In this document: one piece after another, positions 1 to 14,918 of the stretch
How positions within the stretch are numbered: position 1 is the stretch's first letter
Layout of the letters: each line of letters starts with the position of its first letter
Origin: Microbispora bryophytorum
Lineage (GTDB): Bacteria > Actinomycetota > Actinomycetes > Streptosporangiales > Streptosporangiaceae
Reading direction: 5' to 3'
Length of the DNA: 64,000 bases
Assembly: GCF_006874465.1 (NCBI RefSeq)
Contig: NZ_VIRL01000025.1
Span: 1-64,000, forward strand
Notes under the pieces: model-generated
The model's database searches: none
What the model saw: the letters and a program-made list of their open reading frames with translations, nothing else
What the model was told of the DNA's origin: nothing
Program-made: the position numbers and the translations under genes

Positions 1-62
1 ACGGTGAGACGCTGGCCGTCTACAAGACCGCTGCCGCCAACTGGTCCGGCAAGATCGTCTGA
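1..62 (+). CDS. C-terminal end of a secreted V8-like serine peptidase homologue (copy 0, cut by window edge)
   Basis: Only the last 19 codons are inside the window, with the first full codon at position 3. They encode GETLAVYKTAAANWSGKIV, nearly identical to the ends of the complete copies at 852, 4618 and 9227. This is therefore a fifth member of the local family. Its catalytic residues lie outside the window, so whether it keeps the nucleophilic serine cannot be said. It is followed by the same kind of GC-rich terminator as the other copies. Confidence 0.9.
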   Translation, partial: GETLAVYKTAAANWSGKIV

Positions 63-90
63 TCTTCCCCCCGGTAAAGCAGAGTCAAGG

Positions 91-120
91 AAAGGGCCCG
101 GCCTCCAGCCGGGCCCTTTT
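91..120 (+). terminator. Rho-independent terminator of copy 0
   Basis: An AAAGGGCCCGGC arm and its complement flank a short loop and end in a T run. The hairpin is almost identical to the one behind the copy at 852-2171, which fits duplication of whole transcription units. Confidence 0.85.
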
Positions 121-599
121 CCGTTGCCCGAAACACCCACACGCGCGCTTCATCGCGCGGCGGTCACGCCATCGAGCCGATCTCACGCCGGTCTCAGGGC
201 CGGTCTCACGGTCGATCACAGGCCCGATCACAGGGGTGTTCGCCCCGGCCCGCCCCTCTCCCCGCTCCACGGCCGCCGTCTCGCCGTAGCGGGCATCAGA
301 GGCCCGATCGGGCGCTTCGCGAGCGCGTGGAGCAGTCACCCCACACCCCGTAGGCCGCACCCCATATGCGCACGCTTGAGCCGTCCGCCGTCAGAGCCGT
401 ATGACGGGCCGACTCACCGCGCGGGCCTTACGTCGCCCCAGACGGACGGGAACGGCACGAGCCCCCCCACCCCATCAGGTCGCCGCAGACCGCCGGTCGA
501 GCCCTTTTGGGCGTCCGGAACGACACACTGAGAGCGTGGGCACCTTCCGCTGAAGGCCCTTTGGACGTTGCACCCCCTCTTCCGGTTTCATCCCTTCGG

Positions 600-615
600 T
601 GTGATTTACCTCACA
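600..615 (+). promoter_or_regulatory. CRP-type operator upstream of peptidase copy 1
   Basis: TGTGATTTACCTCACA is a perfect TGTGA-N6-TCACA palindrome, the CRP/cAMP-receptor consensus. Its end lies exactly 165 bp before the predicted -10 box at 780 and 237 bp before the start codon; copy 3 has the same spacing. The flanking TCATCCCTTC is also shared with copy 2. I see no gene in the rest of 121-779. Confidence 0.6.
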
Positions 616-779
616 TGCAGCCCCGCCTCGGAACGGTCGCACTGCGTGACAACGGACATCCGACACCGCTCGTGATCAGCACAGATGCCGCATACACCCA
701 CCAACCGGAGCGAAGCACGCGAGCCCGGAGGTGACCGGCAGACGTCGCGGTTCCACTTACACCACACCAACTTCTCCTA

Positions 780-785
780 TAACTT
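780..785 (+). promoter_or_regulatory. Predicted -10 box of peptidase copy 1
   Basis: TAACTT fits TAnnnT. It aligns with TAGTTT, TAGCTT and TAGCTT at the same place before the shared CCTTTACTGACG block of the other three copies. No convincing -35 was seen. Transcription would begin a few bases downstream, giving a leader of about 60 nt. Confidence 0.4.
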
Positions 786-795
786 TCTGACCGTT

Positions 796-851
796 CCTTT
801 ACTGACGCATGGGGCGCAGGAGTCGCCTCACGACAGACCAGGGAGAGAAAG
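796..851 (+). promoter_or_regulatory. Conserved leader with hairpin, peptidase copy 1
   Basis: The leader starts with CCTTTACTGACG. A 6-bp hairpin follows (GGGGCG 811-816 with CGCCTC 824-829, 7-nt loop), then AGACCAGGGAG, which supplies the ribosome-binding site, and then a TTG start at 852. The same order occurs before all four complete copies. Confidence 0.6.
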
Positions 852-2171
852 TTGAAGCGCACCCTCGCACTCGGTGGCGTTGCGGCCGGCCTGCTGGCCT
901 CCGCTGCGATCGCCGCCCCGGCTCACGCCGACTCGGTTCCGAGCACGAACCTGGCCAACACCAACCTCGCCGCTCAGCAGGTCGCCCAGTACTGGCTCGG
1001 CCAGGCCAAGGCCAACCTGGTCAACGCCACGCCGTACACCGCGGAGACCACGGTTTCCGCCAAGCACGTGTCGACCGGCGGCGTCTCCGCCGACGACAAG
1101 GCCGGCGTCGTGGGCTCCAGCGGTGACCAGAAGGCTTCCACCGGCACGTCGAAGAACGTGAACCTGCCGAAGACCACCGGCAAGGTGTTCTTCACCGGCG
1201 CCGACAACAAGCCGCACTGGTGCTCGGCGACCGCTCTGCAGTCGCAGTACAAGAACATCGTGGCGACCGCGGGTCACTGCGTCTACGACACCAAGTCGAA
1301 CGCGGCCACCCTGGACAACTGGGTCTTCGTCCCCGGCTACTACGAGGGCAAGACCCCCTGGGGCATCTACGTCGGCAAGACCGCTTACACGCACTACGAC
1401 TACAGCGTGTACGAGGACGGCGACCGCGACTACGCGTTCGTCGCGGTCTACAACGGCGTCATCCCCACCGAGGGTGACACCCACGGCGGCAAGTACGAGT
1501 CCCGGCTCTACAAGAACAAGTGGGACGCTTACAAGGCGCTGAAGAGCCTCCAGGCCGACAAGACCACGGGCTACTCCAAGCTCCAGGTCGTGCCGGTCTA
1601 CGAGCGCAGCTCGCACAACGGCGGCTGGAACAACAGCGGCTCGCACAACAGCGGCTGGAACAACCAGCACGACAGCCACTCGACGCCGGCCCCGGGCAAG
1701 GTCATCGGCTACAAGGTCGTCGGCTTCAAGGTCTCGATCGGCCTCAAGGACGTCGGCACCCTCGGCGCCAACGTCGGCGGTCAGGGCCTGGCCTACAACC
1801 AGAAGGTCGGCACCGCCGTCTTCGAGTTCGGCTACCCGAGCGGCTCGCACCCGGACGGCAACTACGCCTTCACCGGCAAGACCCAGAAGTGGGCCTACGG
1901 CAAGACCTTCAAGGCCTCTGCCCCGTCGATGAAGGCCGAGGAGCTCGTCGGCATCAAGTCCTCCTTCACCGGTGAGGGCGCCCTCGGCTCGTCCTGGCTG
2001 TACCGCTACAGCAGCGCCAAGCGGCTCGGCTACCTCAACGGTGTGACCATCGCGGTCTCCGACACCGATGGGAACGGCCGCATCGACACCAGCGTCTCCC
2101 CGTACTTCGACGGTGAGACCCTGGCCGTCTACAAGACCGCTCAGGCCAACTGGTCCGGCAAGATCGTCTGA
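852..2171 (+). CDS. Secreted V8/trypsin-like protein, copy 1, predicted catalytically dead
   Basis: The 439-residue protein belongs to the chymotrypsin-fold, V8-like (COG3591) serine peptidases and acts outside the cell. The TTG start at 852 is chosen because the ribosome-binding site and the MKRTL signal peptide are conserved in all copies; cleavage is expected after AHA (about residue 26). His142 (TAGHC) and Asp193 (DYAF) of the triad are present. The nucleophile motif, G-A-S-G-S in copy 2, reads G-A-L-G-S here, with Leu378 in the serine position. Residues about 255-280 form a low-complexity His/Asn/Gly/Trp insert containing SHNGGWNN and SHNSGWNN repeats. The C-terminus YFDGETLAVYKTA is shared by all copies. 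Family and fold are confident. Loss of activity is inferred from the missing Ser; a binding or decoy role is possible. Confidence 0.88.
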   Translation: MKRTLALGGVAAGLLASAAIAAPAHADSVPSTNLANTNLAAQQVAQYWLGQAKANLVNATPYTAETTVSAKHVSTGGVSADDKAGVVGSSGDQKASTGTSKNVNLPKTTGKVFFTGADNKPHWCSATALQSQYKNIVATAGHCVYDTKSNAATLDNWVFVPGYYEGKTPWGIYVGKTAYTHYDYSVYEDGDRDYAFVAVYNGVIPTEGDTHGGKYESRLYKNKWDAYKALKSLQADKTTGYSKLQVVPVYERSSHNGGWNNSGSHNSGWNNQHDSHSTPAPGKVIGYKVVGFKVSIGLKDVGTLGANVGGQGLAYNQKVGTAVFEFGYPSGSHPDGNYAFTGKTQKWAYGKTFKASAPSMKAEELVGIKSSFTGEGALGSSWLYRYSSAKRLGYLNGVTIAVSDTDGNGRIDTSVSPYFDGETLAVYKTAQANWSGKIV

Positions 2172-2194
2172 TCTTTTCTCCAGTCGGTGAGATG

Positions 2195-2230
2195 AAGAAA
2201 AGGGCCCGGCCTCCAGCCGGGCCCTTTTCT
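2195..2230 (+). terminator. Terminator of peptidase copy 1
   Basis: AAAAGGGCCCGGC pairs with GCCGGGCCCTTTT, with a short loop and T-rich end. Confidence 0.85.
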
Positions 2231-2392
2231 TTCGCATTTCGCGGGCGACGAGACGGACGACGAGAAAAGGAACGGCGCCGTCAATTCATCCTGCCCTTCT
2301 TTCCTTCCCGGACCGCTCGGCCGATCGCGCGCAGGCGCCCCCGCCCCAGGCGTCCCGGCGGACTCTCCGTCCACACGGCCAGCGAGGACCTC

Positions 2393-2420
2393 TCATCCCT
2401 TCAGGGCCTGGTGCGGCCCG
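2393..2420 (+). promoter_or_regulatory. Degenerate counterpart of the CRP-site region upstream of copy 2
   Basis: TCATCCCTTCAG at 2393-2404 matches the sequence that directly precedes the CRP palindrome of copy 1. Here it is followed by GGCCTGGTGCGGCCCG instead of TGTGA-N6-TCACA. Copy 2 therefore kept the flank but has no recognisable CRP site. I see no gene elsewhere in 2231-2575. Confidence 0.4.
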
Positions 2421-2575
2421 TCCGGCCACACGTCCTCCGTGGAAGCGCTGCGCCACCGGCTCAATTCCGGAGTGAAGCGCCCGGCAGCGCCGGGGTGCAA
2501 TGGCATATCGAGATTGAAGATCACGAGGTGATACCCATCGGTTCTCCTCTCTTACGCCATCAGCTATCAATCCGG

Positions 2576-2645
2576 TAGTTTTTGCGCATCCTTTACTGAC
2601 GCATGAGGCGAAAGCCGCGCCTCACGACAGACCATGGAGAGCACT
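2576..2645 (+). promoter_or_regulatory. Predicted -10 box and conserved leader of peptidase copy 2
   Basis: TAGTTT at 2576-2581 is the predicted -10 box. CCTTTACTGACG follows at 2590-2601, then a perfect 6-bp hairpin (GAGGCG 2605-2610 with CGCCTC 2618-2623, 7-nt loop), then AGACCATGGAG and TTG at 2646. The ATG at 2634 lies inside the ribosome-binding site block, so TTG is the better start. Confidence 0.55.
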
Positions 2646-4136
2646 TTGAAGCGCACCCTCGCGTTCGGCGGCGTCGCGGTCGGCCTGCTGGCCACCGCCC
2701 TCGTCGCCTCCCCGGCGCACGCCGACCGCGGCCACGGCAAGCCCAAGGCCAAGCCGCTGGCCGAGACCAATTTCGCCGCCAAGCAGGTCGCCGCCTTCTG
2801 GTTCGGCGAGAAGATGGCGAACCTGGTCAACGCCACGCCGTACGGCACCGAGACCAAGGTCACCGCCAAGCACGTCTCGACGATGCCCAAGGAGATCACC
2901 GACACCAAGCCCGGTGTCGTCTCGTCGAGCGGCGACAAGAAGACCACCAGCACGTCGAAGAACGTCAACCTGCCCCGCACCACGGGCAAGGTGTTCTTCA
3001 TCGGCACCGACAACAAGCCGCACTGGTGCACCGCGACCGCCCTGCAGTCGCTGCACAAGAACCTGGTGGCCACTGCCGGTCACTGTGTCTACGACACGGT
3101 GAAGGACAAGGACCTGATGGACAAGTGGGTCTTCGTCCCGGGTTACTACAACGGCAAGACGCCGTACGGCATCTACGTCGGCAAGATGGCGTTCACCCAC
3201 TTCGACTACACCACGTACGGTGACGGCGACTTCGACTACGCGTTCGTCGCCGTCTACAACGGCGTCACCCCGACCGACGCCGGCGCCAGCGGCAAGTACG
3301 AGTCGCAGGTCTACAAGACCAAGTGGGAAGCCGAGCGGGCCAAGGCCAAGCTCGCCGCCGACAAGACCACCGCTCTCTCCAAGCTCGGCGTCGTGGAGAT
3401 CAGCACTCTCTCGAGTCGCGCCCCCGAGGTTCCGGTCACCGTCGCCGAGTTCCAGGCCTGGAACAAGGGCAAGAACCTGACCGGAAACGGCCCGTGGGCT
3501 CCTCTGACGTCCGCCGGCGCGATCAACGACAGGGTCCGGTCGTACGACTACAGGTCGGACAAGGACTCCTACGTCAGCAGGGACGGGAAGACCCTGTTCT
3601 GGCGGGTGAAGCAGCAGAGCAGCCACGAGTACAAGTACTACAGCCGGACGTTCAAGGCGAAGGCCTTCAAGGGCTACAAGGTCGTCGGCGCGAAGCTGAC
3701 GGTCGGCCTGAAGGACGTCGGCAAGCTCGGGGACAACGTCGGCGGCCAGGGCCTGGCCTACAACCAGAAGGTGGGCCAGCCGACCTTCGTGTTCGGCTAC
3801 CCGAGCGGGTCGCACCCGGACGGCAACTACGCCTTCTCCGGCAAGACCCTCAAGTACAGCTACGGCAAGACCTTCCCCGCCACCGCTTCGGCTCTGAAGG
3901 GCGAGGCCCTCCAGGGCATCAAGTCGTCGTTCACCGGCGAGGGCGCTTCCGGCTCCGCCTGGCTGTACAAGTACAACAACTCGACGCGGTTCGGCTACCT
4001 GAACGGCGTCACCATCGGCGTCTCCGACACCGACGGCAACAACCGGTACGACACCAGCGTCTCGCCGTACTTCGACGGTGAGACCCTGGCCGTCTACAAG
4101 GCCGCGGCCGCCACCCCCTCGGCCAACATCGTCTGA
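2646..4136 (+). CDS. Secreted V8/trypsin-like serine peptidase, copy 2, catalytic triad intact
   Basis: The 496-residue protein is a secreted chymotrypsin-fold (V8-like) peptidase. The signal peptide MKRTLAFGG... ends near PAHA (residue 26). The triad is complete: His146 (TAGHC), Asp197 (DYAF) and Ser435 in G-A-S-G-S-A-W, the local version of the V8 GNSGSP motif. It is the only complete copy here that keeps the nucleophile. Residues about 245-330 carry an insert rich in Lys, Arg, Tyr and Ser that differs from copies 3 and 4. An ATG 12 bases upstream is in frame but would overlap the ribosome-binding site. Unlike its relatives it lacks an upstream CRP-type site. Substrate preference cannot be read from sequence. 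Confidence 0.9.
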   Translation: MKRTLAFGGVAVGLLATALVASPAHADRGHGKPKAKPLAETNFAAKQVAAFWFGEKMANLVNATPYGTETKVTAKHVSTMPKEITDTKPGVVSSSGDKKTTSTSKNVNLPRTTGKVFFIGTDNKPHWCTATALQSLHKNLVATAGHCVYDTVKDKDLMDKWVFVPGYYNGKTPYGIYVGKMAFTHFDYTTYGDGDFDYAFVAVYNGVTPTDAGASGKYESQVYKTKWEAERAKAKLAADKTTALSKLGVVEISTLSSRAPEVPVTVAEFQAWNKGKNLTGNGPWAPLTSAGAINDRVRSYDYRSDKDSYVSRDGKTLFWRVKQQSSHEYKYYSRTFKAKAFKGYKVVGAKLTVGLKDVGKLGDNVGGQGLAYNQKVGQPTFVFGYPSGSHPDGNYAFSGKTLKYSYGKTFPATASALKGEALQGIKSSFTGEGASGSAWLYKYNNSTRFGYLNGVTIGVSDTDGNNRYDTSVSPYFDGETLAVYKAAAATPSANIV

Positions 4137-4159
4137 CGCCTCGTGAGGCCCAGCTGAGC

Positions 4160-4195
4160 AAGGGCCCGGCCGCGTGCGGCCGGGCCCTTCTCTGT
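4160..4195 (+). terminator. Terminator of peptidase copy 2
   Basis: AAGGGCCCGGCCGC pairs with GCGGCCGGGCCCTT and is followed by a pyrimidine-rich tract. Confidence 0.85.
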
Positions 4196-4365
4196 TTTCC
4201 GGCTCCTGCGTGTCCGTCTGCTCCCACGCGCGCTCTCCCGCGCCCCACATCCCCTCAGGGCCGTCTCCCGTGCCGCTCCTGGGCCAACTCTCGTGGCCGC
4301 CGGCGCGACGCGCGCACGGGCGGAATCAGACGTGATCACACGGTCGCGCGGTTCCATCCCTTTAA

Positions 4366-4381
4366 TGTGATTTACCTCACA
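4366..4381 (+). promoter_or_regulatory. CRP-type operator upstream of peptidase copy 3
   Basis: TGTGATTTACCTCACA is identical to the site at 600-615. It is again 165 bp before the predicted -10 box (4546) and 237 bp before the start codon. The rest of 4196-4545 shows no gene. Confidence 0.6.
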
Positions 4382-4545
4382 ATAATCACTTGAACGATCA
4401 GTCACGCAGCGTGCTCACGAGCTCTCAAAATCAGCATCTCATCAGCGGAAACACAGCAACCTTTCAGGTTCGGAGCCGGTTCTGAGCAAACGCGGGGGCG
4501 CGGACGGGACGGTTTGCGGCGCTACTTTGCGCCTTCCTCCTCCGA

Positions 4546-4617
4546 TAGCTTGCTTACCGTCCCTTTACTGACGAGTGGGCGTACTTTGTGCCCCCGACAG
4601 ACCAAGGAGAACAACCC
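4546..4617 (+). promoter_or_regulatory. Predicted -10 box and conserved leader of peptidase copy 3
   Basis: TAGCTT (4546-4551) is followed by CCTTTACTGACG (4562-4573) and a weaker hairpin, GGGC 4577-4580 with GCCC 4590-4593, extended by two G-T pairs. AGACCAAGGAG and TTG at 4618 come next. Confidence 0.5.
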
Positions 4618-6072
4618 TTGAAGCGCACCCTCACCCTCGGCGGCATCGCGGTCGGCCTGCTGGCCTCCGCGGTCGTCGCCGCCCCCGCACAGGCGGATTC
4701 CGTACCGCACGACACCCTGGCCAGCTCCAACTTCGCCGCCAAGCAGGTCGCCGCCTTCTGGTTCGGCGAGCGTATGGCCAACCTCCGCAACGCCAAGCCG
4801 TACAACGTGGAGACGCAGGTCTCGGCCAAGCACGTGTCTACCGGCGGGGCCTCCGCGGACAGCAAGGCCGGCGTGGTCGGCTCCAGCGGCGACAAGAAGG
4901 CGACCACCAGCACGAAGAACGTCAACCTGCCCAAGACCACGGGCAAGGTGTTCTTCATCGGCGCGGACAAGAAGCCGCACTGGTGCACCGCGACCGCGGT
5001 CCAGTCGCGTTACAAGAACCTGGTGGCGACCGCCGGCCATTGCGTGTACGACACCAAGAGCAACAAGGCGACCCTCGACAAGTGGGTCTTCGTCCCCGGT
5101 TACTACCAGGGCAAGACCCCGTGGGGCATCTACGTCGGCAAGACCGCGTACACCCACTACGACTTCGACGTCTACGAGGACGGCGACCGCGACTACGCGT
5201 TCGTCACCGTCTACAACGGCGTCCTGCCCACCAGCGGCTCCAGCAAGAGCTACGCCCACACCTACGAGACCTCTTTCCAGGCGAAGTGGGCCAAGGCCAA
5301 GCTCGACAAGGACAACGCCTACTCCCACCTCCGTATCCAGTCCGTGGTCGACACGCGCCACGTGGTCAAGGAGGGCACCCGCGACTCGCAGAAGGTCTAC
5401 GTCAAGCGGGACGACTGGAAGAAGCTCAACCCCGAGGGCACTCCGGCCGACGGGCCCTTCAAGGAGGGCACCGGCGTCACGGACAAGGAATACCGCTTCA
5501 AGCCGCGCGGCTGGGACGAGGGCAAGGCGTCCCGCGACGGCAGGGCGTTCTACCTCAAGAAGGGCGACAAGTACGTCGTCCGCACCTACTGGATCAACTA
5601 CGACGTCGACTACCGCCTGACCGGCCGGACGCTGTCCATCGGTCTCAAGGACGTCGGCACCCTCGGCTCCAACGTGGGCGGTCAGGGTCTGGCCTACAAC
5701 CAGAAGATCGGCACGGGCATCTTCGTGTTCGGTTACCCGAGCGGCTCGCACCCGGACGGCAACCACGCCTTCTCCGGCAACACCCTCAAGTGGTCGTACG
5801 GCAAGACCTTCAAGGCCAGCTCCCCCACCATCAAGGCGCAGGAGCTCGTCGGCATCAAGTCGTCGTTCACCGGTGAGGGCGCGCTCGGCTCGGCGTGGCT
5901 GTACCGCTACAGCAGCACCAAGCGGCTCGGCTACCTGAACGGCGTGACCATCGGCGTCGCCGACCGCGACGGCAACAAGCGCTACGACACCAGCGTCTCC
6001 CCGTACTTCGACGGTGAGACCTACGGCGTGTACAAGACCGCCGCGAACAACTGGTCCGGCAAGATCGTCTGA
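4618..6072 (+). CDS. Secreted V8/trypsin-like protein, copy 3, predicted catalytically dead
   Basis: The 484-residue secreted paralogue has a signal peptide ending near PAQA. His141 and Asp192 of the triad are present. Leu423 replaces the nucleophilic Ser in G-A-L-G-S-A-W. Its central insert (about residues 240-335, with RHVVKEGTRDS, DDWKKLNPEGTP and YWINYDVDYRLTGR) is nearly the same as that of copy 4 and unlike copies 1 and 2. Copies 3 and 4 are thus the closest pair even though they lie on opposite strands 3 kb apart. The start is TTG behind a conserved AAGGAG. Confidence 0.88.
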   Translation: MKRTLTLGGIAVGLLASAVVAAPAQADSVPHDTLASSNFAAKQVAAFWFGERMANLRNAKPYNVETQVSAKHVSTGGASADSKAGVVGSSGDKKATTSTKNVNLPKTTGKVFFIGADKKPHWCTATAVQSRYKNLVATAGHCVYDTKSNKATLDKWVFVPGYYQGKTPWGIYVGKTAYTHYDFDVYEDGDRDYAFVTVYNGVLPTSGSSKSYAHTYETSFQAKWAKAKLDKDNAYSHLRIQSVVDTRHVVKEGTRDSQKVYVKRDDWKKLNPEGTPADGPFKEGTGVTDKEYRFKPRGWDEGKASRDGRAFYLKKGDKYVVRTYWINYDVDYRLTGRTLSIGLKDVGTLGSNVGGQGLAYNQKIGTGIFVFGYPSGSHPDGNHAFSGNTLKWSYGKTFKASSPTIKAQELVGIKSSFTGEGALGSAWLYRYSSTKRLGYLNGVTIGVADRDGNKRYDTSVSPYFDGETYGVYKTAANNWSGKIV

Positions 6073-6090
6073 CCTGTCACCGCGCACGCG

Positions 6091-6122
6091 AAGGGGCCCG
6101 GCACCGCGCCGGGCCCCTTTCC
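6091..6122 (+). terminator. Terminator of peptidase copy 3
   Basis: AAGGGGCCCGGC pairs with GCCGGGCCCCTTT around a short loop. Confidence 0.85.
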
Positions 6123-6129
6123 GTTCCTC

Positions 6130-6270
6130 ACCGCGCGGGCGACACCCTCACCACGCGGGCGACACCCTCATCCCAGCGGCGGCGGCTCCACCGCGCCGGC
6201 CGGCGTCGCGCCCGTGGCCGACCGTGGTCGCCCGTGGCCGACATTGGCCGACATTGGCCGACGGTGGCCG
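6130..6270. repeat. Short direct repeats between convergent genes
   Basis: CGCGGGCGACACCCTCA occurs twice in a row at 6134-6170, and TGGCCGAC-like units recur at 6213-6270. The stretch lies between the 3' ends of copy 3 and the ABC-F gene and has no gene of its own. Confidence 0.5.
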
Positions 6271-6282
6271 GCCGATCTGGCC

Positions 6283-8091
6283 CTACTGCCCTTCGAGGCG
6301 CTCGGCCGCCGTCATCCACTCGAACTCGGCCGACTCCTTCTGCGCGGCGATCTCCCGCAGCTCGGCGTCGAGCTTGGCCAGGCGCTCGAAGTCGCTCGCC
6401 GCATCGGCCATCTCGGCGTGCAGCTTCGCCTCACGCTCGCCGAGCTTGTCGATCTGCCGTTCCAGCCGGTTGAGCTCCTTCTGCAGCTCCCGCAGCTCCT
6501 TGGCGGTCGGCCCGCCCACCGGCGCCGGCTGATCGTCCTGGCCGCCCCGCTCGGGAGCGCTCGCGGCAGAGGCCGCCCGCGCCGACAGGGCCGCGCCCGC
6601 CGCACGGCGTTCGAGGTATTCGTCCACTCCGCCGGGCAGCATCGACAACCTGCCGTCTCCGAGGAGCGCGACGCAGCGGTCCGCCACCCTCTCCAGGAAG
6701 TACCGGTCGTGGCTCACCACCACCAGCGTGCCCGGCCAGCCGTCGAGGAGGTCCTCCAGCTCGGTGAGCGTCTCGATGTCGAGGTCGTTGGTCGGCTCGT
6801 CGAGCAGCAGCACGTTCGGCTCGTTCATGATCAGCCGGAGGAACTGCAAGCGCCGCCGCTCGCCGCCCGACAGGTCGCCGACGACCTTCCACTGGGCCTC
6901 GCCCCGGAAGCCGAGGCGTTCGAGCAGCTGGGAGGCCGACCACTCCTTCTTGCCCACCTGGACGTACTTGCGGATCTCCTCGACCGTCTCCAGCACCCGC
7001 CGCGTGGGGTCCAGCTCGGCCAGCTCCTGCGACAGGTGCGCGAGCCGCACCGTCCTGCCGCGCACGAGGCGGCCGGAGTCGGGCTCGACCGTGCCGGACA
7101 GCAGGCGCAGCACCGACGACTTGCCCGAGCCGTTCACCCCGATCAGGCCGATCCGGTCCCCCGGGCCGAACTGGTACGTGCACTGGTCGAGCACCAGCGG
7201 ACCCGATGCCGGGCCTCCCGCGTGGAGCGTCACGTCCTCCAGGTCCGCGACGGTCTTGCCGAGCCGCGCCGAGGCGAAGCTGAGCAGCTCGACGGCCTCC
7301 CGCGGCGGCGGCTCGTTCGCGATCAGCGCCTCGGCCGCGTTGATCCGGAACTTGGGCTTGGAAGTCCGGGCCGGCGGTCCGCGCCGCAGCCAGGCGATCT
7401 CCTTGCGCATGAGGTTCTGCCGGCGCTCCTCCGCCGCCTGCGCGATCCGCGCCCGCTCGGCCTTGGCCAGCACGTACGCCGCGTAGCCGCCCTCGTATCG
7501 CTCGACGGAGCCGTCCACGACCTCCCACGTGCGGGTGGAGACCGCGTCGAGGAACCAGCGGTCGTGGGTGACGACCAGCAGCGCGGACTTGCGCTGGACG
7601 AGATGCCCGGCGAGCCAGGCGATGGCCTCGATGTCGAGGTGGTTCGTGGGCTCGTCGAGGATCAGCAGGTCGTGCTCCTCGATCAGCAGCCGCGCCAGGG
7701 CCGTACGGCGACGCTCCCCGCCCGACAGCGCGCCCGCGGGGGCCGCGAGGTCGATGTCGGCGAGCAGGTTGGCGAGGATCTCCCTGATCGCGGCGTCGCC
7801 GGCCCACTCGTGCTCGGCCCGGCCGGCCAGGACGATGTCCTTCACCGCGACGTCCGGGTCGAACTGGTCACGCTGGGAGAGCGCGCCGACCCGCAGTCCG
7901 CGGGTGTGGGTGACTCGGCCGCTGTCGGGTTTCAGCGCTCCGGCGATGATCGAGATGAGCGTTGTCTTGCCTCCGCCGTTGCGGCCGACGACGCCGATCC
8001 GGTCACCCTCCTCTAGTCCGAGAGAGACGTCGGCGAGCAGGGGCTTGGGCCCGAAGGCGTGGGAGACGGACTCCAGATTGACCAGATTCAT
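6283..8091 (-). CDS. ABC-F family ATPase (Uup-like)
   Basis: The 602-residue soluble protein has two ABC ATPase domains and no membrane segments. Walker A motifs are GRNGGGKTT (residues 36-44) and GVNGSGKSS (about 320); both halves have LSGGERRR signatures and DEPTNxLD Walker B motifs. ABC-F proteins act on the ribosome; some rescue stalled ribosomes and others protect against antibiotics. The C-terminal coiled coil (LRELQKELNRLERQIDKLGE and on to the end) is typical of the Uup branch and argues against a dedicated resistance protein. Its start is 12 bp after the ispE stop, so the two are probably cotranscribed. Confidence 0.9.
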   Translation of the reverse strand: MNLVNLESVSHAFGPKPLLADVSLGLEEGDRIGVVGRNGGGKTTLISIIAGALKPDSGRVTHTRGLRVGALSQRDQFDPDVAVKDIVLAGRAEHEWAGDAAIREILANLLADIDLAAPAGALSGGERRRTALARLLIEEHDLLILDEPTNHLDIEAIAWLAGHLVQRKSALLVVTHDRWFLDAVSTRTWEVVDGSVERYEGGYAAYVLAKAERARIAQAAEERRQNLMRKEIAWLRRGPPARTSKPKFRINAAEALIANEPPPREAVELLSFASARLGKTVADLEDVTLHAGGPASGPLVLDQCTYQFGPGDRIGLIGVNGSGKSSVLRLLSGTVEPDSGRLVRGRTVRLAHLSQELAELDPTRRVLETVEEIRKYVQVGKKEWSASQLLERLGFRGEAQWKVVGDLSGGERRRLQFLRLIMNEPNVLLLDEPTNDLDIETLTELEDLLDGWPGTLVVVSHDRYFLERVADRCVALLGDGRLSMLPGGVDEYLERRAAGAALSARAASAASAPERGGQDDQPAPVGGPTAKELRELQKELNRLERQIDKLGEREAKLHAEMADAASDFERLAKLDAELREIAAQKESAEFEWMTAAERLEGQ

Positions 8092-8103
8092 CGCCCGTAA
8101 AGC

Positions 8104-9042
8104 TTATCCGGCCACAGTGGCCCCGGGGACGGGCCCGGAGGCGGTGACGACGGACCTGCATCCGTCCACGTCCTTGATCAGAGCGGCCAGCTCGTGCGCC
8201 CGCTCCGCCGACTCTGCGAGGAACGCGCAGGTGGGACCGGACCCGGAGACGAGCGCGCCGAGCGCCCCGTGCTCACGGCCGGCGGCGAGCGTGTTCGCGA
8301 GCGAGGGACGCAGGGCCAGCGCGGCGGGCTGGAGGTCGTTGGACAGCGCCTGCCCGAGCGCCCTGACGTCGCCCTCGCGCAGGGCGGCGAGCAGAGCCTC
8401 GCTCACTGCCGGCGTGGGCGCGGCCACCCCCGCCTCCTCGCGCAGCCGGTCGCACTCGCCGTACACCCTGGGGGTCGACAGGCCGCCGTCGGCGAGCGCG
8501 AAGACCCAGTGGAAGACCCCGGCGGTCTCCAGCGGGGCGAGCCGCTCGCCGCGTCCGGTCCCCACCGCGGTGCCGCCGAGCAGCGCGAACGGCACGTCGC
8601 TGCCGATGTCGGCGGCGATCTCCATCAGGTCCTCACGGGGCAGGCCGAGGCCCCACAGTTCGTTGCAGGCCACCAGCGCCGCGGCCGCGTCGGCGCTTCC
8701 TCCGGCCATGCCGCCCGCCACGGGGATCGACTTGCGGATCAGCAGATCGGCCCGGTACGAGCGGCCCGTCCGGTCGGCCAGCGCCCTGGCGGCCCGGACC
8801 GCGAGGTTGTCGTCGCTCACCGGAACCTCTCCGGCCAGGTCCCCCTCGACCCTGACCACGAGCGGGGCGGCGGAGGGGTCCCGCCCAGGGGCAGGGTCGA
8901 ACGGCTCGGCGGCCGTGACCTCGTCGAACAGCGAGACCGCGTGGAAGACGTTCACCAGGTCGTGGTAGCCGTCCTCGCGCAGCGGGCCGACCGCGAGCTG
9001 GAGGTTGACCTTCGCCGGCACGCGCACCGTGATCGCACTCAT
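8104..9042 (-). CDS. ispE: 4-diphosphocytidyl-2-C-methyl-D-erythritol kinase
   Basis: This 312-residue GHMP kinase catalyses the ATP-dependent phosphorylation step of the non-mevalonate (MEP) isoprenoid pathway. PAKVNLQL at residues 9-16 and the glycine-rich ATP loop GGMAGGSADAA near 110-120 are clear, with the C-terminal GSGPTCAFL motif. Length is normal. In mycobacteria ispE directly follows rsmA; here 2.5 kb with a peptidase copy and gene debris separates them. It is followed closely by the ABC-F gene. Confidence 0.95.
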   Translation of the reverse strand: MSAITVRVPAKVNLQLAVGPLREDGYHDLVNVFHAVSLFDEVTAAEPFDPAPGRDPSAAPLVVRVEGDLAGEVPVSDDNLAVRAARALADRTGRSYRADLLIRKSIPVAGGMAGGSADAAAALVACNELWGLGLPREDLMEIAADIGSDVPFALLGGTAVGTGRGERLAPLETAGVFHWVFALADGGLSTPRVYGECDRLREEAGVAAPTPAVSEALLAALREGDVRALGQALSNDLQPAALALRPSLANTLAAGREHGALGALVSGSGPTCAFLAESAERAHELAALIKDVDGCRSVVTASGPVPGATVAG

Positions 9043-9176
9043 CGCCCGCTCGCCGCCTCATGTCGTCGCCGTGCCCGGGGCCGCTCTTCGCATGCTCCTG
9101 TTCCTGGCATGGGACCCGAGCTTAGCGTCACCACGCGTCCCGGGAGATTCCACAGGCCGGTCCCTGTCAGGGCAGC

Positions 9177-9210
9177 GGAAAGGGGCCCGGCGCGGTGCCG
9201 AGCCCCTTCG
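9177..9210 (-). terminator. Terminator of peptidase copy 4
   Basis: Read on the minus strand, GAAGGGGCTCGGC pairs with GCCGGGCCCCTTTC. It has the same form as the other family terminators and ends the inverted copy before ispE. Confidence 0.8.
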
Positions 9211-9226
9211 CGTGCGCGGTGACGGA

Positions 9227-10684
9227 TCAGACGATCTTGCCCGACCAGTTGGCCTGAGCGGTCTTGTAGACGGCCAGGGTCTCACCGTCGAAGTACGGGG
9301 AGACGCTGGTGTCGATGCGCTTGTTGCCGTCGGTGTCGGAGACCGCGATGGTCACACCGTTGAGGTAGCCGAGCCGCTTGGCGCTGCTGTAGCGGTAGAG
9401 CCAGGACGAGCCGATGGCGCCCTCACCGGTGAAGGAGGACTTGATGCCGACGAGCTCCTCGGCCTTCATCGACGGCGCGGCCGCCTTGAAGGTCTTGCCG
9501 TACGACCACTTGAGGGTCTTGCCGGAGAAGGCGTAGTTGCCGTCCGGGTGCGAGCCGCTCGGGTAACCGAACACGAACATGCCCGTGCCGATCTTCTGGT
9601 TGTAGGCCAGACCCTGACCGCCCACGTTGGAGCCGAGGGTGCCGACGTCCTTGAGACCGATCGACAGAGCGCGGCCGGTCAGGCGGTAGTCGACGTCGTA
9701 GTTGATCCAGTAGGTGCGGACGACGTACTTGTCGCCCTTCTTGAGGTAGAACGCCCTGCCGTCGCGGGACGCCTTGCCCTCGTCCCAGCCGCGCGGCTTG
9801 AAGGGGTACGCCTTGTCCGTGACGCCGGTGCCCTCCTTGAAGGGCCCGTCGGCCGGAGTGCCCTCGGGGTTGAGCTTCTTCCAGTCGTCCCGCTTGACAT
9901 AGACCTTCCGCGAGTCGCGGGTGCCCTCCTTGACCACGTGGCGCGTGTCGACCACGGACTGGATGGTCACGTGCGAGTAGGCCTTGTCCTTGTCGAGCTT
10001 GGCCTTGGCCCACTTCGCCTGCAGAGAGGTCTCGTAGGTGTGGGCGTAGCTCTTGCCGGAGGCGCTGGTGGGCAGGACGCCGTTGTAGACGGTGACGAAC
10101 GCGTAGTCGCGGTCGCCGTCCTCGTAGACGTCGAAGTCGTAGTGGGTGTACGCGGTCTTGCCGACGTAGATGCCCCACGGGGTCTTGCCCTGGTAGTAAC
10201 CGGGAACGAAGACCCACTTGTCGAGGGTCGCCTTGTTGCTCTTGGTGTCGTACACGCAATGGCCGGCGGTCGCCACCAGGTTCTTGTACTGGCTCTGCAC
10301 GGCGGTCGCCGAGCACCAGTGCGGCTTCTTGTCCGCGCCGATGAAGAACACCTTGCCGGTGGTCTTCGGCAGGTTCACGTTCTTCGACGTGCCGGAGGAA
10401 GCCGACTTGTCACCGCTGGAGCCGACAACGCCGGCCTTGCTGTCCGCGGAGGCGCCGCCCGAGGAGACGTGCTTGGTGGGCAGCGTGGTCTCCACCGCGT
10501 ACGGGGTGGCGTTGACCAGGTTGGCCTTGTTCTGGCCGTACCAGAACGCGGCGACCTGCTTGGCGGCGAAGTTGGTGCTGGCCAGGGTGTCGTGCGGAAC
10601 GGAGTCCGCGTGTGCGGGGGCGGCGACGGCCGCAGAGGCCAGCAGGCCGACCGCGATGCCGCCGAGGGTGAGGGTGCGCTTCAA
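9227..10684 (-). CDS. Secreted V8/trypsin-like protein, copy 4, predicted catalytically dead
   Basis: The 485-residue paralogue is most like copy 3. The TTG start at 10684 follows a conserved AGACCAGGGAG. The signal peptide ends near PAHA. His142 and Asp193 are in place, while Ile424 occupies the Ser position (G-A-I-G-S-S-W). The gene interrupts the usual rsmA-ispE order and lies on the opposite strand to its relatives, so it probably arrived by duplication into this locus together with its promoter, leader and terminator. Confidence 0.88.
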   Translation of the reverse strand: MKRTLTLGGIAVGLLASAAVAAPAHADSVPHDTLASTNFAAKQVAAFWYGQNKANLVNATPYAVETTLPTKHVSSGGASADSKAGVVGSSGDKSASSGTSKNVNLPKTTGKVFFIGADKKPHWCSATAVQSQYKNLVATAGHCVYDTKSNKATLDKWVFVPGYYQGKTPWGIYVGKTAYTHYDFDVYEDGDRDYAFVTVYNGVLPTSASGKSYAHTYETSLQAKWAKAKLDKDKAYSHVTIQSVVDTRHVVKEGTRDSRKVYVKRDDWKKLNPEGTPADGPFKEGTGVTDKAYPFKPRGWDEGKASRDGRAFYLKKGDKYVVRTYWINYDVDYRLTGRALSIGLKDVGTLGSNVGGQGLAYNQKIGTGMFVFGYPSGSHPDGNYAFSGKTLKWSYGKTFKAAAPSMKAEELVGIKSSFTGEGAIGSSWLYRYSSAKRLGYLNGVTIAVSDTDGNKRIDTSVSPYFDGETLAVYKTAQANWSGKIV

Positions 10685-10756
10685 GTTACTACTCCCTGGT
10701 CTGATCGTCGGGCGCCGCTTGCGCCCCAACCGTCAGTAAAGGTCGGCTAAAAGCTA
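10685..10756 (-). promoter_or_regulatory. Predicted -10 box and conserved leader of peptidase copy 4
   Basis: Read on the minus strand, TAGCTT (10756-10751) is followed by CCTTTACTGACG (10742-10731), a 6-bp hairpin GGGCGC/GCGCCC (10726-10710) and AGACCAGGGAG before TTG. The stem sequence differs from copies 1-3 but the pairing is kept. Confidence 0.5.
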
Positions 10757-10930
10757 TCCGAGGATTTGGGAGAAGTGACCGCCTCAGTGGTTATCAGTCT
10801 GATCGCCACGTCAAGATCGCGGCTACCGGCGCCGCCCGCGCCTTCTCCGCGGCCGTCGCGTTTTCGCTGATCACAAGTGCCGCCATCGCCACCCCGTCAC
10901 CCGGTGTCACCGATCGACACAAGGGCTGTA

Positions 10931-10946
10931 TGTGATGCAAATCACA
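10931..10946 (-). promoter_or_regulatory. CRP-type operator upstream of peptidase copy 4
   Basis: In gene sense the site reads TGTGATTTGCATCACA, a perfect TGTGA-N6-TCACA palindrome. It ends 175 bp before the predicted -10 box, one helical turn further than in copies 1 and 3. The flanking GTTCCATC and TACAGCC also match copies 1 and 3. The rest of 10757-11020 shows no gene. Confidence 0.6.
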
Positions 10947-11020
10947 CTTTGTCGATGGAACGGATCACCAGCCGATCACGTCCAACTCGGCCCGCCGGCG
11001 CACTCGCGGAGCCCATCCGG

Positions 11021-11250
11021 CTACCCCGACCGCCGCCACCGCCAGTTCAGCTCCCCGGGCTCCGGAGGCGGACCGGGGAGAGCGTCCGCATCGTCGCCGG
11101 TCACGCCGGCTCCCGCGACACCGTCGAGCACCATGGACAGGAAGCGCCGCCGCAGCTCCCGCGTACGCTCCGGGTCCGGCACGCGGACGGCGGCGCACCC
11201 CTCCAGCACGAGACCGAAGTCGTCGGCGACGACGTCACCGCGCAACCACG
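11021..11250 (-). pseudogene. C-terminal remnant of a TetR-like regulator
   Basis: The minus-strand frame reads LRGDVVADDFGLVLEGCAAV, then PDPERTRELRRRFLSMVLDG, and stops at 11021. This resembles the end of the TetR ligand-binding domain. No DNA-binding N-terminus exists upstream; the similarity stops at about 11250, exactly where the oppositely oriented TIGR03086 remnant begins. The assignment rests on recognition of this tail pattern, not a search. Confidence 0.45.
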
Positions 11251-11577
11251 GGGCTGGACGCTTCGGCCCGCGCCTGGGCGACGGTGGACGACGACGCCGA
11301 GCAGGGGCCGGTGCCGCTTCCCCAGGGCCCCATGCCCGCATCGCTCGCGGCCGGCGCGTGCGCGCTCGACGCGGCGGTGCACGCCTGGGACATCGCCGTG
11401 GCCACGGGGCAGCCCTCGCCGCTCACCCCGGAGATGGCCCTGCCGCTGATGGAGGTCGCCACCCAGATCGTCGAACCGCTGCGGGCCTACGGCGCGTACG
11501 CTCCCGCGCTGGAGACCGGCGACGACGCCGACGAAGTGACCGTGCTGCTGGCCTACCTCGGCCGCCGGCCGGTCTGA
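11251..11577 (+). pseudogene. C-terminal half of a TIGR03086/DinB-like (mycothiol-type) protein
   Basis: The frame reads LDASARAWATV, then SLAAGACALDAAVHAWDIAVATGQ, to a stop at 11577. This is the second half of the TIGR03086 family, relatives of the mycothiol-dependent maleylpyruvate isomerase; full members are about 190 residues. The N-terminal half, with its metal-binding His, is absent. A GTG at 11284 could start a 97-residue product, but there is no ribosome-binding site and half a domain is unlikely to fold. It overlaps the convergent rsmA end by 25 bp. Confidence 0.6.
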
Positions 11578-12440
11578 CCCGGCTGGTGCGCCGCCGCCGG
11601 GGCCCGCTGTTCGGCGATTCGGGCGAAGTCCTCGACCCTCAGCTGCTCCCCACGCGCCGAGGGGTCGATCCCGGCCCCGAGCAGCGCCTTCTCCGCGGCG
11701 GCCGCCGTTCCGGCCCAGGAGGCGAGCGCGGCGCGCAGCGTCTTGCGGCGCTGGGCGAACGCCGCGTCGATGGCGGCGAACACCTCCTCGCGGGTCGCCG
11801 TCGTCACCGGCGGCTCCCGCCGTACGAGCGAGACCAGGCCGGAGTCGACGTTCGGCGCGGGCCAGAAGACGTTGCGCCCGACCGGACCGGCCCGGCGCAC
11901 GTCGGCATACCAGGCGGCCTTCACCGAGGGAACGCCGTAGATGCGCGACCCCGGCGCCGCGGCGAGCCGGTCGGCGACCTCCGACTGCACCATCACCAGC
12001 CCGCGCCGCAGCGACGGCAGCACCTCCAGCAGGTGCAGCACGACCGGCACGGACACGTTGTACGGCAGGTTGGCGACCAGCGCGGTCGGCTCGGTCCCGA
12101 GCTCGGCGGGCCCGACCTTGAGCGCGTCGGCGTGCACCACGGTCAGCCGGCCGGCCACCTCGGGGGCCCGCTCGGCGACCGTCAGCGGCAACTGCTGCGC
12201 CAGCACCGGGTCGATCTCCACGGCGACGACCTCGGCGACCTCGGGGAGCAGGGCGAGGGTGAGCGAGCCGAGCCCCGGCCCGACCTCGATCGCCACGTCG
12301 TGCGGTGCGACCCCGGAGAGCCGGACGATACGGCGGACGGTGCCGCCGTCGATCACGAAGTTCTGCCCCAGCTTCTTCGTCGGCCGGATGTTCAGCCTCT
12401 CCGCGAGCGAACGCACTTCGACCGGCCCGAGCAGACTCAT
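11553..12440 (-). CDS. rsmA: 16S rRNA (adenine1518/1519-N6) dimethyltransferase
   Basis: The 295-residue RsmA/KsgA protein dimethylates two adjacent adenines near the 3' end of 16S rRNA during 30S maturation. KKLGQNF near residue 23, the SAM motif VGPGLGSLT, the acidic VEIDP and the catalytic NLPYNVS are all present. The start is 19 bp behind the tatD stop, in line with a metG-tatD-rsmA operon. The rpfB gene that separates tatD and rsmA in mycobacteria is missing here. Confidence 0.96.
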
Positions 12441-12459
12441 GCCTCCAGTGTCCCCCGCG

Positions 12460-13326
12460 CTACCAGGCGCCGAAGACGGTCTGGCCGTTGGCCGCGATCC
12501 GCGTGGCGAGGTCGGCGACGTCCATGCCCTTGACCTCCGCGAGGCAGCGCAGCGTGAGCGGGATCAGGTAGGGCGCGTTTGGCCTGCCCCGATGCGGCGT
12601 CGGCGGCAGGTAGGGCGCGTCGGTCTCGACCAGCATCAGCTCGGGCGGGGCCACCGCCGCAGCCTCACGCAGATATCCGGCGTTCTTGTACGTCACCGGG
12701 CCGGAGAACGACATGAAGTAACCGGCGTCCACACACCGCTTGGCCATCTCGGCGTCGCCGGAGAAGCTGTGGAAGACCACCACGCCGGGGGCGCCCTGGT
12801 CGGCGAGCACGGCGAGCACGTCGTCGTGCGCGTCGCGGTCGTGGATCACCAGGGCCTTGCCGGTCCGCTTGGCGATCTCGATGTGCGCGCCGAAGCTGGC
12901 GTGCTGGTCGTCCTTCGACGCCCAGTCGCGGAAGTAGTCGAGACCGGTCTCCCCCACCGCCCGCACGTGTGGCCGCCGCGCGAGGTCCTCGATCTCGGCG
13001 AGGACCTCGGGCGTGGAGGCGTGCGCCTCGTTGGGGTGGATGGCCACGGCCGCGTAGACGTCCCGGTGCTCGCCGGCCACCTCGGCGTTCCACCGCGAGG
13101 AGGGCAGGTCGTATCCCACCGTCACCAGGCGCGTCACACCGACCGACTTCGCCTCGGCGAGGATCGACGCGACGCTCGCCCCGGCCGCCTGGGCCGCCAG
13201 CGCGACGGGATCACCCGACGACGCCTGCCGGTTGCCGACCATGATGTCCAGGTGGCAGTGGCTGTCGAACACCTCCGCCGGCAGCGCCTCGGGCGGCGCG
13301 GGCGGCGCGGGACGCTCACGCGACAT
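12460..13326 (-). CDS. tatD: TatD family metal-dependent hydrolase (DNase)
   Basis: The 288-residue TIM-barrel metallohydrolase carries the metal ligands SHCHLD near the N-terminus, [32 protein letters not shown] and VETDAPYL. TatD proteins have 3'-5' exonuclease activity and are implicated in DNA or RNA quality control. The ATG at 13326 is only 2 bp after the metG stop, indicating tight coupling. A longer frame upstream overlaps metG and is not used. Confidence 0.93.
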
Positions 13327-13328
13327 GA

Positions 13329-14918
13329 TCAGGCGTTCTCCAGCCGCGGGAAGAGGATCTCGCCCTTGACGACCTGGGCCCCGGCGGGCAGCCTGCCCCA
13401 GGTGGCGACGTCGGCGATCCGCTGGCCGGCGAGCGCGCCCAGATGCGGCTCCGCCCCGATGGACGCCCACAGCTTGGCGCTCGTGGTGGGCATGATCGGG
13501 TGGAGCAGGACCGCGATCGCGCGCAGCGACTCGGCCGCCGTGTAGAGAATCGTGGCGAGCCGCGCCTGCCCCTCGGGCGAGTCGTCCTTGGCCACCTTCC
13601 ACGGCGCCTGCTCGCTCAGGTAACCGTTGACCTGCTTGACGAAGTCGAAGACGGCGCCGATGCCGCCCGCGAAGTCCAGGTTGTCACCGATCAAGGTGTC
13701 CGCCCGGGCCACCGCCGTGGCCAGGCCGTCCGCGATCGCCCGCTCGGCGGGACCCGCGTCCGTCGCCTCGGGAAGGGTTCCGTCGAAGTACTTGCCGACC
13801 ATGGCCGCGACCCGGGACGCCAGATTGCCGAAGTCGTTGGCGAGCTCGGAGGTGTAGCGGGCGGAGAAGTCCTCCCAGGAGAACGAGCCGTCCTGGCCGA
13901 ACGGAATCGCCCGCAGGAAGTAGTAGCGGTAGGCGTCCACGCCGAAGTGGCTCGTCAGTTCGCGGGGCGAGATGCCGGTGAGGTTGGACTTGCTCATCTT
14001 CTCGCCGCCGGCCAGAAGCCAGCCGTTGGCGAACACCTTGCGCGGCAGCGGCAGGTCGTTCGCCATAAGCATGGCCGGCCAGATCGCCGCGTGGAACCGG
14101 AGGATGTCCTTGCCGACCAGGTGGACGTTCGCCGGCCAGGTGGCGTCGAACTTCGCCTGGTCCGAGCCGTACCCGACCGCGGTCGCGTAGTTGAGCAGCG
14201 CGTCGATCCAGACGTAGATGACGTGCTTGGAATCCCACGGGATCGGGACGCCCCAGTCGAACGTCGAGCGCGAGATCGACAGGTCCTGCAGGCCCTGCTT
14301 CACGAGCTGCACGATCTCGTTGCGGGCGGAGGCGGGCTGGATGAAGTCCGGGTTCTGCTCGTAGTGCTCCAGCAGGCGCGGGCCGTACGCGGAGAGCCTG
14401 AAGAAGTAGTTCTCCTCCTTCAGCCACTCGACCGGGCGCTTGTGGATCGGGCACAGGTCGCCCTCCAGCAGATCGCCGGGCGACTTGTACTCCTCGCAGC
14501 CGACGCAGTAGGGGCCCTCGTACTCGCCCCGGTAGATCTCGCCCTTGTCGTACAGGTCCTGCACGAACTCCTGCACGCGGTCGGTGTGGCGCGGCTCGGT
14601 CGTGCGAATGAAGTCGTCGTTGGCGATCTGAAGGTGCTCCCAGAGCGGCTTCCAGGCGTCCTCGACGAGCTTGTCGCACCACTCCTGGGGCGTCATGCCG
14701 TTCGCCTCGGCCGTACGCATGATCTTCTGACCATGCTCGTCCGTGCCCGTGAGGTACCACACCTTCTCGCCGCGCTGACGGTGCCAGCGGGTGAGCACGT
14801 CGCCCGCGACGGTCGTGTAGGCGTGGCCCAGGTGCGGGGCGTCGTTGACGTAGTAGATCGGCGTCGTCACGTAGAACGCCGACTCCCCGGATGATGCAGT
14901 CGTTCCTGTAGCCGCCAT
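13329..14918 (-). CDS. metG: Methionyl-tRNA synthetase
   Basis: This 529-residue class I synthetase charges tRNA-Met. The HLGH signature (HIGH-type) lies near residue 33, the single zinc knuckle CVGCEEYKSPGDL...CPIH in the connective peptide, and KMSKS near 310. The C-terminal anticodon-binding helices are intact and there is no EMAP/Trbp111-like extension, as usual for the actinobacterial form. It is first in the metG-tatD-rsmA set. Confidence 0.96.
   Translation of the reverse strand: MAATGTTASSGESAFYVTTPIYYVNDAPHLGHAYTTVAGDVLTRWHRQRGEKVWYLTGTDEHGQKIMRTAEANGMTPQEWCDKLVEDAWKPLWEHLQIANDDFIRTTEPRHTDRVQEFVQDLYDKGEIYRGEYEGPYCVGCEEYKSPGDLLEGDLCPIHKRPVEWLKEENYFFRLSAYGPRLLEHYEQNPDFIQPASARNEIVQLVKQGLQDLSISRSTFDWGVPIPWDSKHVIYVWIDALLNYATAVGYGSDQAKFDATWPANVHLVGKDILRFHAAIWPAMLMANDLPLPRKVFANGWLLAGGEKMSKSNLTGISPRELTSHFGVDAYRYYFLRAIPFGQDGSFSWEDFSARYTSELANDFGNLASRVAAMVGKYFDGTLPEATDAGPAERAIADGLATAVARADTLIGDNLDFAGGIGAVFDFVKQVNGYLSEQAPWKVAKDDSPEGQARLATILYTAAESLRAIAVLLHPIMPTTSAKLWASIGAEPHLGALAGQRIADVATWGRLPAGAQVVKGEILFPRLENA

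Follow-up and report, generated by a model that had tools for sequence, protein, structure and literature searches.

The window analysed here, a 64,000-nucleotide stretch at positions 1 to 64,000 of contig NZ_VIRL01000025.1 (C55 in our numbering) in the 7.85 Mb genome of Microbispora bryophytorum, begins within an array of genes encoding V8-like serine protease homologues and holds four complete paralogues, A to D, whose N termini are signal-like as assessed by eye. Copy A (852–2171, + strand) encodes 439 amino acids (aa), copy B (2646–4136, + strand) 496 aa, copy C (4618–6072, + strand) 484 aa and copy D (9227–10684, – strand) 485 aa. An earlier reading of this DNA from its letters alone (the sequence-only reading) had described four complete paralogues that all retain the catalytic His and Asp, with Ser in B alone, and its residue numbers agree with the translations: His142/Asp193/Leu378 in A, His146/Asp197/Ser435 in B, His141/Asp192/Leu423 in C and His142/Asp193/Ile424 in D. 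The full His-Asp-Ser triad is found only in B, where the nucleophile codon is TCC (3948–3950, + strand); the corresponding codons are CTC in A (1983–1985, + strand), CTC in C (5884–5886, + strand) and ATC in D (9413–9415, – strand).

The array extends beyond what the window contains. Positions 3–62 (+ strand) encode the C terminus of another paralogue lying upstream, translated as GETLAVYKTAAANWSGKIV followed by a stop, so that the contig begins inside the array. Other members in the same genome lie on contigs C84, C104, C59 and C65, and because C55, C84 and C104 each terminate inside family genes, a count of four copies is an undercount. The corresponding array in G009, a closed genome, comprises eight genes, of which seven lack Ser and one, the orthologue of B, bears it; a ninth gene of the clade to which the window's copies belong (GEG, with the motif FTG[EQ]G) lies at a second locus of that genome and likewise lacks Ser. 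Related copies are also present in named records of Microbispora rosea ATCC 12950 (96% to B), Microbispora hainanensis and Sphaerimonospora thailandensis.

The relation of these proteins to known proteases was examined at the nucleophile column. By phmmer, copy B matched the AL20-type V8-like serine proteases 3cp7 (AL20; E 1.2e-10) and 3wy8 (E 2e-10), which we take to be members of family S1, with the score carried by the His/Asp half; Ser435 aligned to the Ser of GSSGGPW in both structures, in a second half that matched weakly (5.4 and 11.0 bits). A profile search with ten members against solved structures gave an alignment that stopped before the Ser. The nucleophile column named by the sequence-only reading is upheld by the phmmer alignment, with its weak second half, and is clear within the family alignment, where the Ser of 74 members outside the GEG clade (mostly G-x-S-G-G-P-W) occupies the same column as Ser435 of B. 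None of the four copies reached the cut-off of any Pfam or NCBIfam model; with Trypsin and Trypsin_2, A gave no score, B and C scored 16.2 and 14.5 bits (Trypsin, gathering cut-off 20.6), and D scored 18.5 bits (Trypsin_2, cut-off 27.6). The copies share with the AL20-type proteases a trypsin-like sequence, the T-A-G-H-C motif, the Asp in DYAF and the position of the nucleophile column, whereas GEG members differ in one additional residue ahead of the nucleophile-loop Gly, in an insert of 9–278 aa between the two halves, in the usual lack of Ser, and in having only two Cys in 90 of the 116 members without Ser. A pseudoprotease is recognised by replacement of a catalytic residue in a conserved scaffold, and this is what we find in A, C and D, the scaffold being inferred from core conservation and selection.

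To describe the state of the nucleophile across relatives, we collected 255 family open reading frames of at least 200 aa; 16 that were open at a locus or contig end were left out, leaving 239 full-length members from 33 genomes or records, at loci chosen around the matches listed, so that the collection is not a census (63 genes with an unrecognised start were left out of one step). The column holds Ser in 95 members and another residue in 144, and the main classes, written as the residues at the three triad positions, are HDS (94), HDI (48), HDL (45), HDD (18), SNL (8), HNI (7) and HNL (5). The GEG clade comprises 137 members, 21 with Ser and 116 without, and in the latter the residue is Leu in 60, Ile in 55 and Val in one; a tree of these 116 requires at least 12 changes between the three. 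A further 16 complete GEG members without Ser, at other loci of G075, G130, G097 and G053, carry only Ile, Leu or Met, the Met being found in a G075 gene (L203, 1370–2950). Ser is also lacking in 28 members that fall outside the clade, of which 20 have Asp in its place. Since the family fills tandem clusters in Streptosporangiaceae, and 144 of the 239 collected members lack Ser, the absence of Ser is not a local feature of the window; chance and sequencing or assembly error as its source were rejected, the same state being found in many genomes. All 15 genomes in the genus search, that of the window included, have the family; at the family level matches (E <= 1e-20) were found in 60 of 150 genomes, spread over 24 of 68 genera, and a class-wide draw gave 13 matches in 296 genomes (E <= 1e-15), 12 of the 13 in Streptosporangiaceae. 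The plasmid collection gave one matching record, an 11.85 Mb replicon of Nonomuraea gerenzanensis (L195); the part of it that was read encodes six members, and at least two of these carry Asp in the nucleophile column.

We further analyzed selection on the two conserved blocks that flank the insert, as the ratio of nonsynonymous to synonymous rates (omega, Nei-Gojobori; given below as core N block/core C block, from pooled pairs that are not independent). Values for groups around the window's copies were 0.28/0.16 (A), 0.31/0.08 (B), 0.15/0.15 (C) and 0.17/0.18 (D). Elsewhere they were 0.18/0.26 for a fifth, Ile-bearing paralogue, 0.18/0.19 for the GALGSGW group, 0.45/0.22 for the Ser-bearing copies of the second locus, 0.15/0.13 for GQGSIGSSW, 0.24/0.22 for the canonical intact clade, 0.29/0.32 for another Ser clade, 0.30–0.34/0.29 for the Asp types and 0.35/0.32 for the Ser-Asn-Leu type. 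By this measure purifying selection acts on the cores of Ser-less copies about as it does on those of intact relatives (0.15–0.28 versus 0.22–0.24). The sequence-only reading had held that the dead copies are kept and had proposed dN/dS in related genomes as a check; the cores of A, C and D show the purifying selection it anticipated, the range of 0.15–0.28 covers A, C, D and the fifth Ile paralogue, and a shared leader, described below, stands before nearly all GEG genes.

These values bear on the alternative that the Ser-less genes are functionless duplicates in decay. Such genes would be expected in tandem arrays such as these, where Ser, and in some members Asp or His too, has been lost, and one copy in G130 is apparently frame-broken. 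Against this, core omega is 0.13–0.35 in the Ser-less groups tested, the four copies in the window have intact frames, the replacing residues are confined to Ile, Leu, Val and Met, and the leader is conserved. General decay, which was already disfavoured, is therefore extremely improbable.

Where copy B obtained its Ser was addressed with trees built after removal of the triad columns. In the FastTree tree of all 239 members, B and its orthologues (G000, G004, G007 and G009) are nested among Leu and Ile members, and in separate trees of the N block and the C block B falls into a clade of six Leu and four Ser members with a support of 97 in both. An IQ-TREE tree of 90 rows (86 of the 137 GEG members and four outgroups), in which many deeper forks are unresolved, places B in a clade of seven rows, three with Leu and four with Ser (SH-aLRT 99). 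The approximately unbiased (AU) test rejects trees that unite all GEG-Ser copies in a single clade (p 0.0022), that join B to the short Ser copies (p 0.0054) or that unite all non-Ser GEG copies in a single clade (p 0.0175). Allowing gains of Ser improves a two-state model over one without them (twice the log-likelihood difference, 2 dlnL, 43.6 on the FastTree tree), and the parent node of B is reconstructed as non-Ser with P 0.93 (IQ-TREE) and 0.987 (FastTree), the well-supported node below that parent with 0.97 and 0.998; these probabilities are conditional on the trees, which recombination among paralogues could disturb. Because B sits within a Leu/Ile clade, its Ser was most likely regained, and the Leu/Ile state most likely predates the window's array. 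This reverses the direction assumed by the sequence-only reading, in which three of the four copies had lost Ser.

Alternatively, B may have retained the original Ser while the surrounding Leu/Ile lineages each lost it independently. Losses are usually thought easier than gains, and the nearest sister clades encode their Ser most often by TCC, as B does; when gains are fixed at 1% of losses, the probability that the parent is non-Ser falls to 0.86 on the IQ-TREE tree (0.97 on the FastTree tree). This account, however, needs 13 losses inside the GEG clade, all of them to Ile, Leu or Val, and leaves the no-gain model worse by the margin given above; we regard it as quite unlikely. The class of Ser codon (AGC versus TCN) is uninformative on a regain, because the nearest sister clades already use TCC or TCG. 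Conversion of B from a Ser paralogue by a long tract was also considered, and no such tract was seen. At the second locus, the copy has Leu (CTG) in G004 and G009, two of the four genomes having B with Ser, and its orthologues observed in other genomes of the genus, among them G000 and G007, have Ser; since the Leu of G004 and G009 is one shared change, this pattern is suggestive only.

A second feature of the array is a structured leader of about 58–60 nt, the 3' end of which lies at or beside the start codon. Using a model built from 44 non-redundant leaders out of 122, cmsearch found it before A (794–851, + strand; match 794–852, 70.1 bits, E 2e-17; fold z –2.22), where it pairs with the Shine-Dalgarno sequence of that gene, before B (2588–2645, + strand; match 2588–2646, 70.5 bits, E 1.6e-17; z –2.40), before C (4560–4617, + strand; match 4560–4616, 50.9 bits, E 3.4e-12; z –2.30) and before D (10685–10744, – strand; 61.9 bits, E 3.5e-15; z –3.08). 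The helix joins a 5' CCUU with the AAGG of the Shine-Dalgarno sequence, CUG with CAG and CG with CG, below a variable apical stem; 91.1% of cells are paired, and none of 500 shuffles reached any of five measures, a count that is not to be read as a probability. In the outer helix (columns 1–6 with 49–54), both sides change in three of the six pairs with 83.7% of cells paired, and RNAalifold, unguided, recovered 14 pairs of the same helices. As judged from these alignments, the leader is a covarying helix that includes the Shine-Dalgarno sequence, though it may instead be a DNA operator and not an RNA switch.

Where whole genomes were checked, the leader is found only with this family of genes. 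By nhmmer it lies upstream of 132 of the 137 GEG genes, 15 of the 74 other Ser members, 9 of the 20 Asp types and all four Ala types, and upstream of none of the three Gly types nor the single Thr type. In six chosen whole genomes, all 34 matches at E <= 3e-5 lie upstream of family genes (nine each in the window's own genome, G009 and G013, one in G134, four in G053 and two in G026), and the next match has E >= 0.02. It was found in 29 of 80 genomes (24 of 68 genera) at the family level and in 4 of 118 genomes of the class, all four from Streptosporangiaceae; on the Nonomuraea gerenzanensis replicon it stands before two of the six genes. Weak leader-like matches elsewhere in the window's genome (L157–L160; window 51660–51720; E 0.13 to 8) are taken as chance. 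Rfam gave no match at the leaders in window positions 1–14000 (E up to 1) or in L131 and L062 (E up to 0.5). A tie between leader and Ser loss was considered on the raw counts (127 of 144 non-Ser genes versus 33 of 95 Ser genes) and rejected, as independent pairs did not support it. With regard to the expression signals that the sequence-only reading had called intact, the leaders stand; a scan for sigma-70-type promoters found none (0.6 in shuffles), other promoter types being outside the scan, and terminator-like sites numbered 10 versus 5.7 in shuffles, the strongest being a stem-loop of 13 pairs after B (4160–4189, + strand). The signal peptides claimed with them rest on inspection by eye.

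The third feature is the insert between the Asp half and the Ser half. That of A (1467–1739, + strand, 91 aa) is hypervariable, with a pooled omega of 1.32 against the 0.28/0.16 of its flanking core, as is that of B (3273–3704, + strand, 144 aa; 0.90), which is 51–52% identical to those of the G009 and G004 orthologues with 56 gap columns, whereas the cores are 92–97% identical. The insert of C (5230–5640, + strand, 137 aa; 0.42) is moderately constrained, and that of D (9659–10069, – strand, 137 aa; 0.44 from one pair) resembles it. Pooled insert values in the other groups were 0.63 (fifth Ile paralogue), 0.33 (GALGSGW), 2.37 (second-locus Ser copies, with a 40 aa insert and few changes), 0.76 (GQGSIGSSW), 0.20 (canonical), 0.39 (another Ser clade), 0.93 and 0.51 (Asp types) and 1.18 (Ser-Asn-Leu). 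On inserts as divergent as these, omega near 1 indicates weak constraint and not positive selection. Across the 137 GEG members, conservation reaches 95% or more in only 3 of 144 insert columns, compared to 74 of 181 in the N block and 76 of 143 in the C block. The closest gene by core and the closest by insert were compared for 88 GEG genes whose insert is 60 aa or longer: the two are the same gene in 41 cases and different genes in 46, one having no insert match. In 23 of 237 pairs with a core identity of at least 0.88 the inserts have no blastp match to each other. By these comparisons the insert is often hypervariable and shuffled between copies. Some inserts are of low complexity, and those of B and C reached the cut-off of no Pfam family. 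A minimal Ile-type member of G053 (L215, 5324–6541) has almost no insert, from which it follows that the scaffold does not need one.

Around the array, the window carries housekeeping genes (6283–9042 and 11553–14918; by eye an ABC-F ATPase, ispE, ksgA, tatD and metG), and the same ABC-F gene adjoins the array in Sphaerimonospora (L060) and G009 (L062). Between the second-locus paralogues of the window's genome lies a small open reading frame of 94 aa (L029, 9672–9956).

Whether Ser-less copies occur together with Ser-bearing ones was assessed by genome, Sphaerimonospora, seen in part, not being counted, and with the reservation that further copies may lie in unread loci or be missing from draft assemblies. 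Of the 21 genomes with Ser-less GEG copies, 20 also carry one or more with Ser: 14 genomes of the genus have one or two each, as do G047, G052, G073, G075, G097 and G130. The last of these holds 13 complete Ser-less GEG copies, the highest count in one genome. In G012, the loci read contained no GEG copy. Such co-occurrence fits a role for the dead copies as partners of an active sibling, a role to which G053 is contrary.

Taking these results together, we think it somewhat probable, on the evidence of sequence comparison, that A, C and D have been kept as secreted proteins that bind without catalysing, under common regulation with a few Ser-bearing siblings, and that their insert likely serves target recognition. 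With a hydrophobic Leu or Ile in place of the nucleophilic Ser, their site should be unable to cut. The proteins would be exported, folded on a V8/trypsin-like scaffold, and would bind a target through the old cleft, the insert or both, without hydrolysis. Because most share one leader, the dead copies would be produced together with their Ser-bearing siblings, and the pairing of the 5' CCUU with the Shine-Dalgarno sequence could gate translation. Copy B would be a member of a pseudoprotease lineage that, having most likely regained its Ser, may now supply cutting beside its dead siblings.

A different role for the same proteins is that of decoys, which would occupy inhibitors and so spare the Ser-bearing sibling, the variability of the insert reflecting an arms race with inhibitors of competitors or hosts. 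The GEG members without Ser mostly retain His (106 of 116) and Asp (95 of 116), a Ser-bearing GEG copy accompanies them in nearly every genome, and the nonsynonymous rate of the insert is high in several groups, as a decoy would lead one to expect. A neutral residue such as Ala, however, would seem better suited to a decoy than the bulky hydrophobic residue found in the site, and in G053 there is no Ser partner to spare; we consider decoys unlikely. Still less likely, in our judgement, is that the Ser-less copies remain enzymes with an altered chemistry in which another conserved residue, for example Ser437 at position +2 of B, acts as the nucleophile. Ser437 is present in all 116 non-Ser and all 21 Ser-bearing GEG members and is Gly in 62 of the 74 other Ser members, and the Asp and His are mostly retained. 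Ser437 is not compensatory, however, because it is also present alongside Ser435, and the Ser-less set has lost His in 10 of 144 members and Asp in 23 of 144, compared to 0 and 1 of 95 in the Ser-bearing set.

Several observations weigh against the binding-protein interpretation or parts of it. The invariance of Ser437 in the 137 GEG members is one. In G053, whose genome is closed, the three GEG copies all lack Ser. The AlphaFold model of C has a mean pLDDT of 33.6 and is uninformative on the site, the insert being its least poor part (ten-residue blocks of 43 to 74) with values below 40 elsewhere. Some copies do decay, to judge from the Ser-less G130 copy (contig C8; L206, 1203–2793), which has no His half in frame and its halves in different frames, and is apparently frame-broken or misassembled. 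For the regain in B, the node joining it to its nearest single Leu relative is poorly supported (6 and 10; the next nodes have 99 and 100), and within 15 nt on either side of its Ser the best match is a Ser-bearing gene (31 of 33), so that a conversion tract of about 30 nt may be the source of the Ser. Once the tree is taken into account, presence of the leader is not associated with Ser loss (sign test, median p 1), and the moderate insert conservation in C, D and GALGSGW (omega 0.33–0.44) means that hypervariability is not universal.

The binding-protein interpretation places the array among known pseudoproteases. In Clostridioides, the Csp proteases comprise an active CspB and the pseudoproteases CspA and CspC (PMC6636752); they likewise form a bacterial serine-protease family with dead paralogues retained beside an active copy, and differ in their subtilisin fold, their place in spores and the separate roles of two dead copies. 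The present family, unlike Csp, is trypsin-like in sequence, with signal-like N termini, many more dead copies in a single genome and a variable insert. A survey of prokaryotic serine protease homologues counts 42 of 966 without catalytic residues, in five families and 91 genomes (PMC2605481), compared to 144 of 239 collected members in the present single family, in expanded clusters. Pseudo-orthocaspases are also bacterial pseudoproteases conserved across taxa, and are caspase-type (His-Cys) relatives, the abstract mentioning no variable insert or private leader (PMC6426788). Among the matches listed in a literature search of titles and abstract openings, none named such a family. Possibly related are ETK32012.1 and ETK32013.1, Microbispora proteins of unknown function with consecutive numbers, which are reported to be over-represented at 90 h and were assigned by Phyre2 to alkaline serine proteases (PMC4709908). 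The kind of protein is thus likely a known one, and what would be unusual here is the scale, the variable insert, the family-restricted leader and the likely regained nucleophile.

Two of these features, the hypervariable insert and the structured leader, were absent from the account given by the sequence-only reading. The usual description of pseudoenzymes is of losses not easily undone, and here many losses stand beside a well-placed candidate for the regain of a nucleophile; natural orthologues with Ser or Leu at one locus allow the two states to be compared directly. More tentatively, and with considerable doubt, the family could be a secreted recognition repertoire of Streptosporangiaceae, in which conserved dead-protease barrels carry shuffled, rapidly evolving cassettes for varied targets under a private RNA leader that switches the set at translation, with catalysis lost and regained as the cutting role shifts between loci; the targets may be inhibitors, competitors, phage or substrates. 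The variable insert and the family-restricted leader provide two testable handles on the role of dead proteases in secreting soil actinomycetes.

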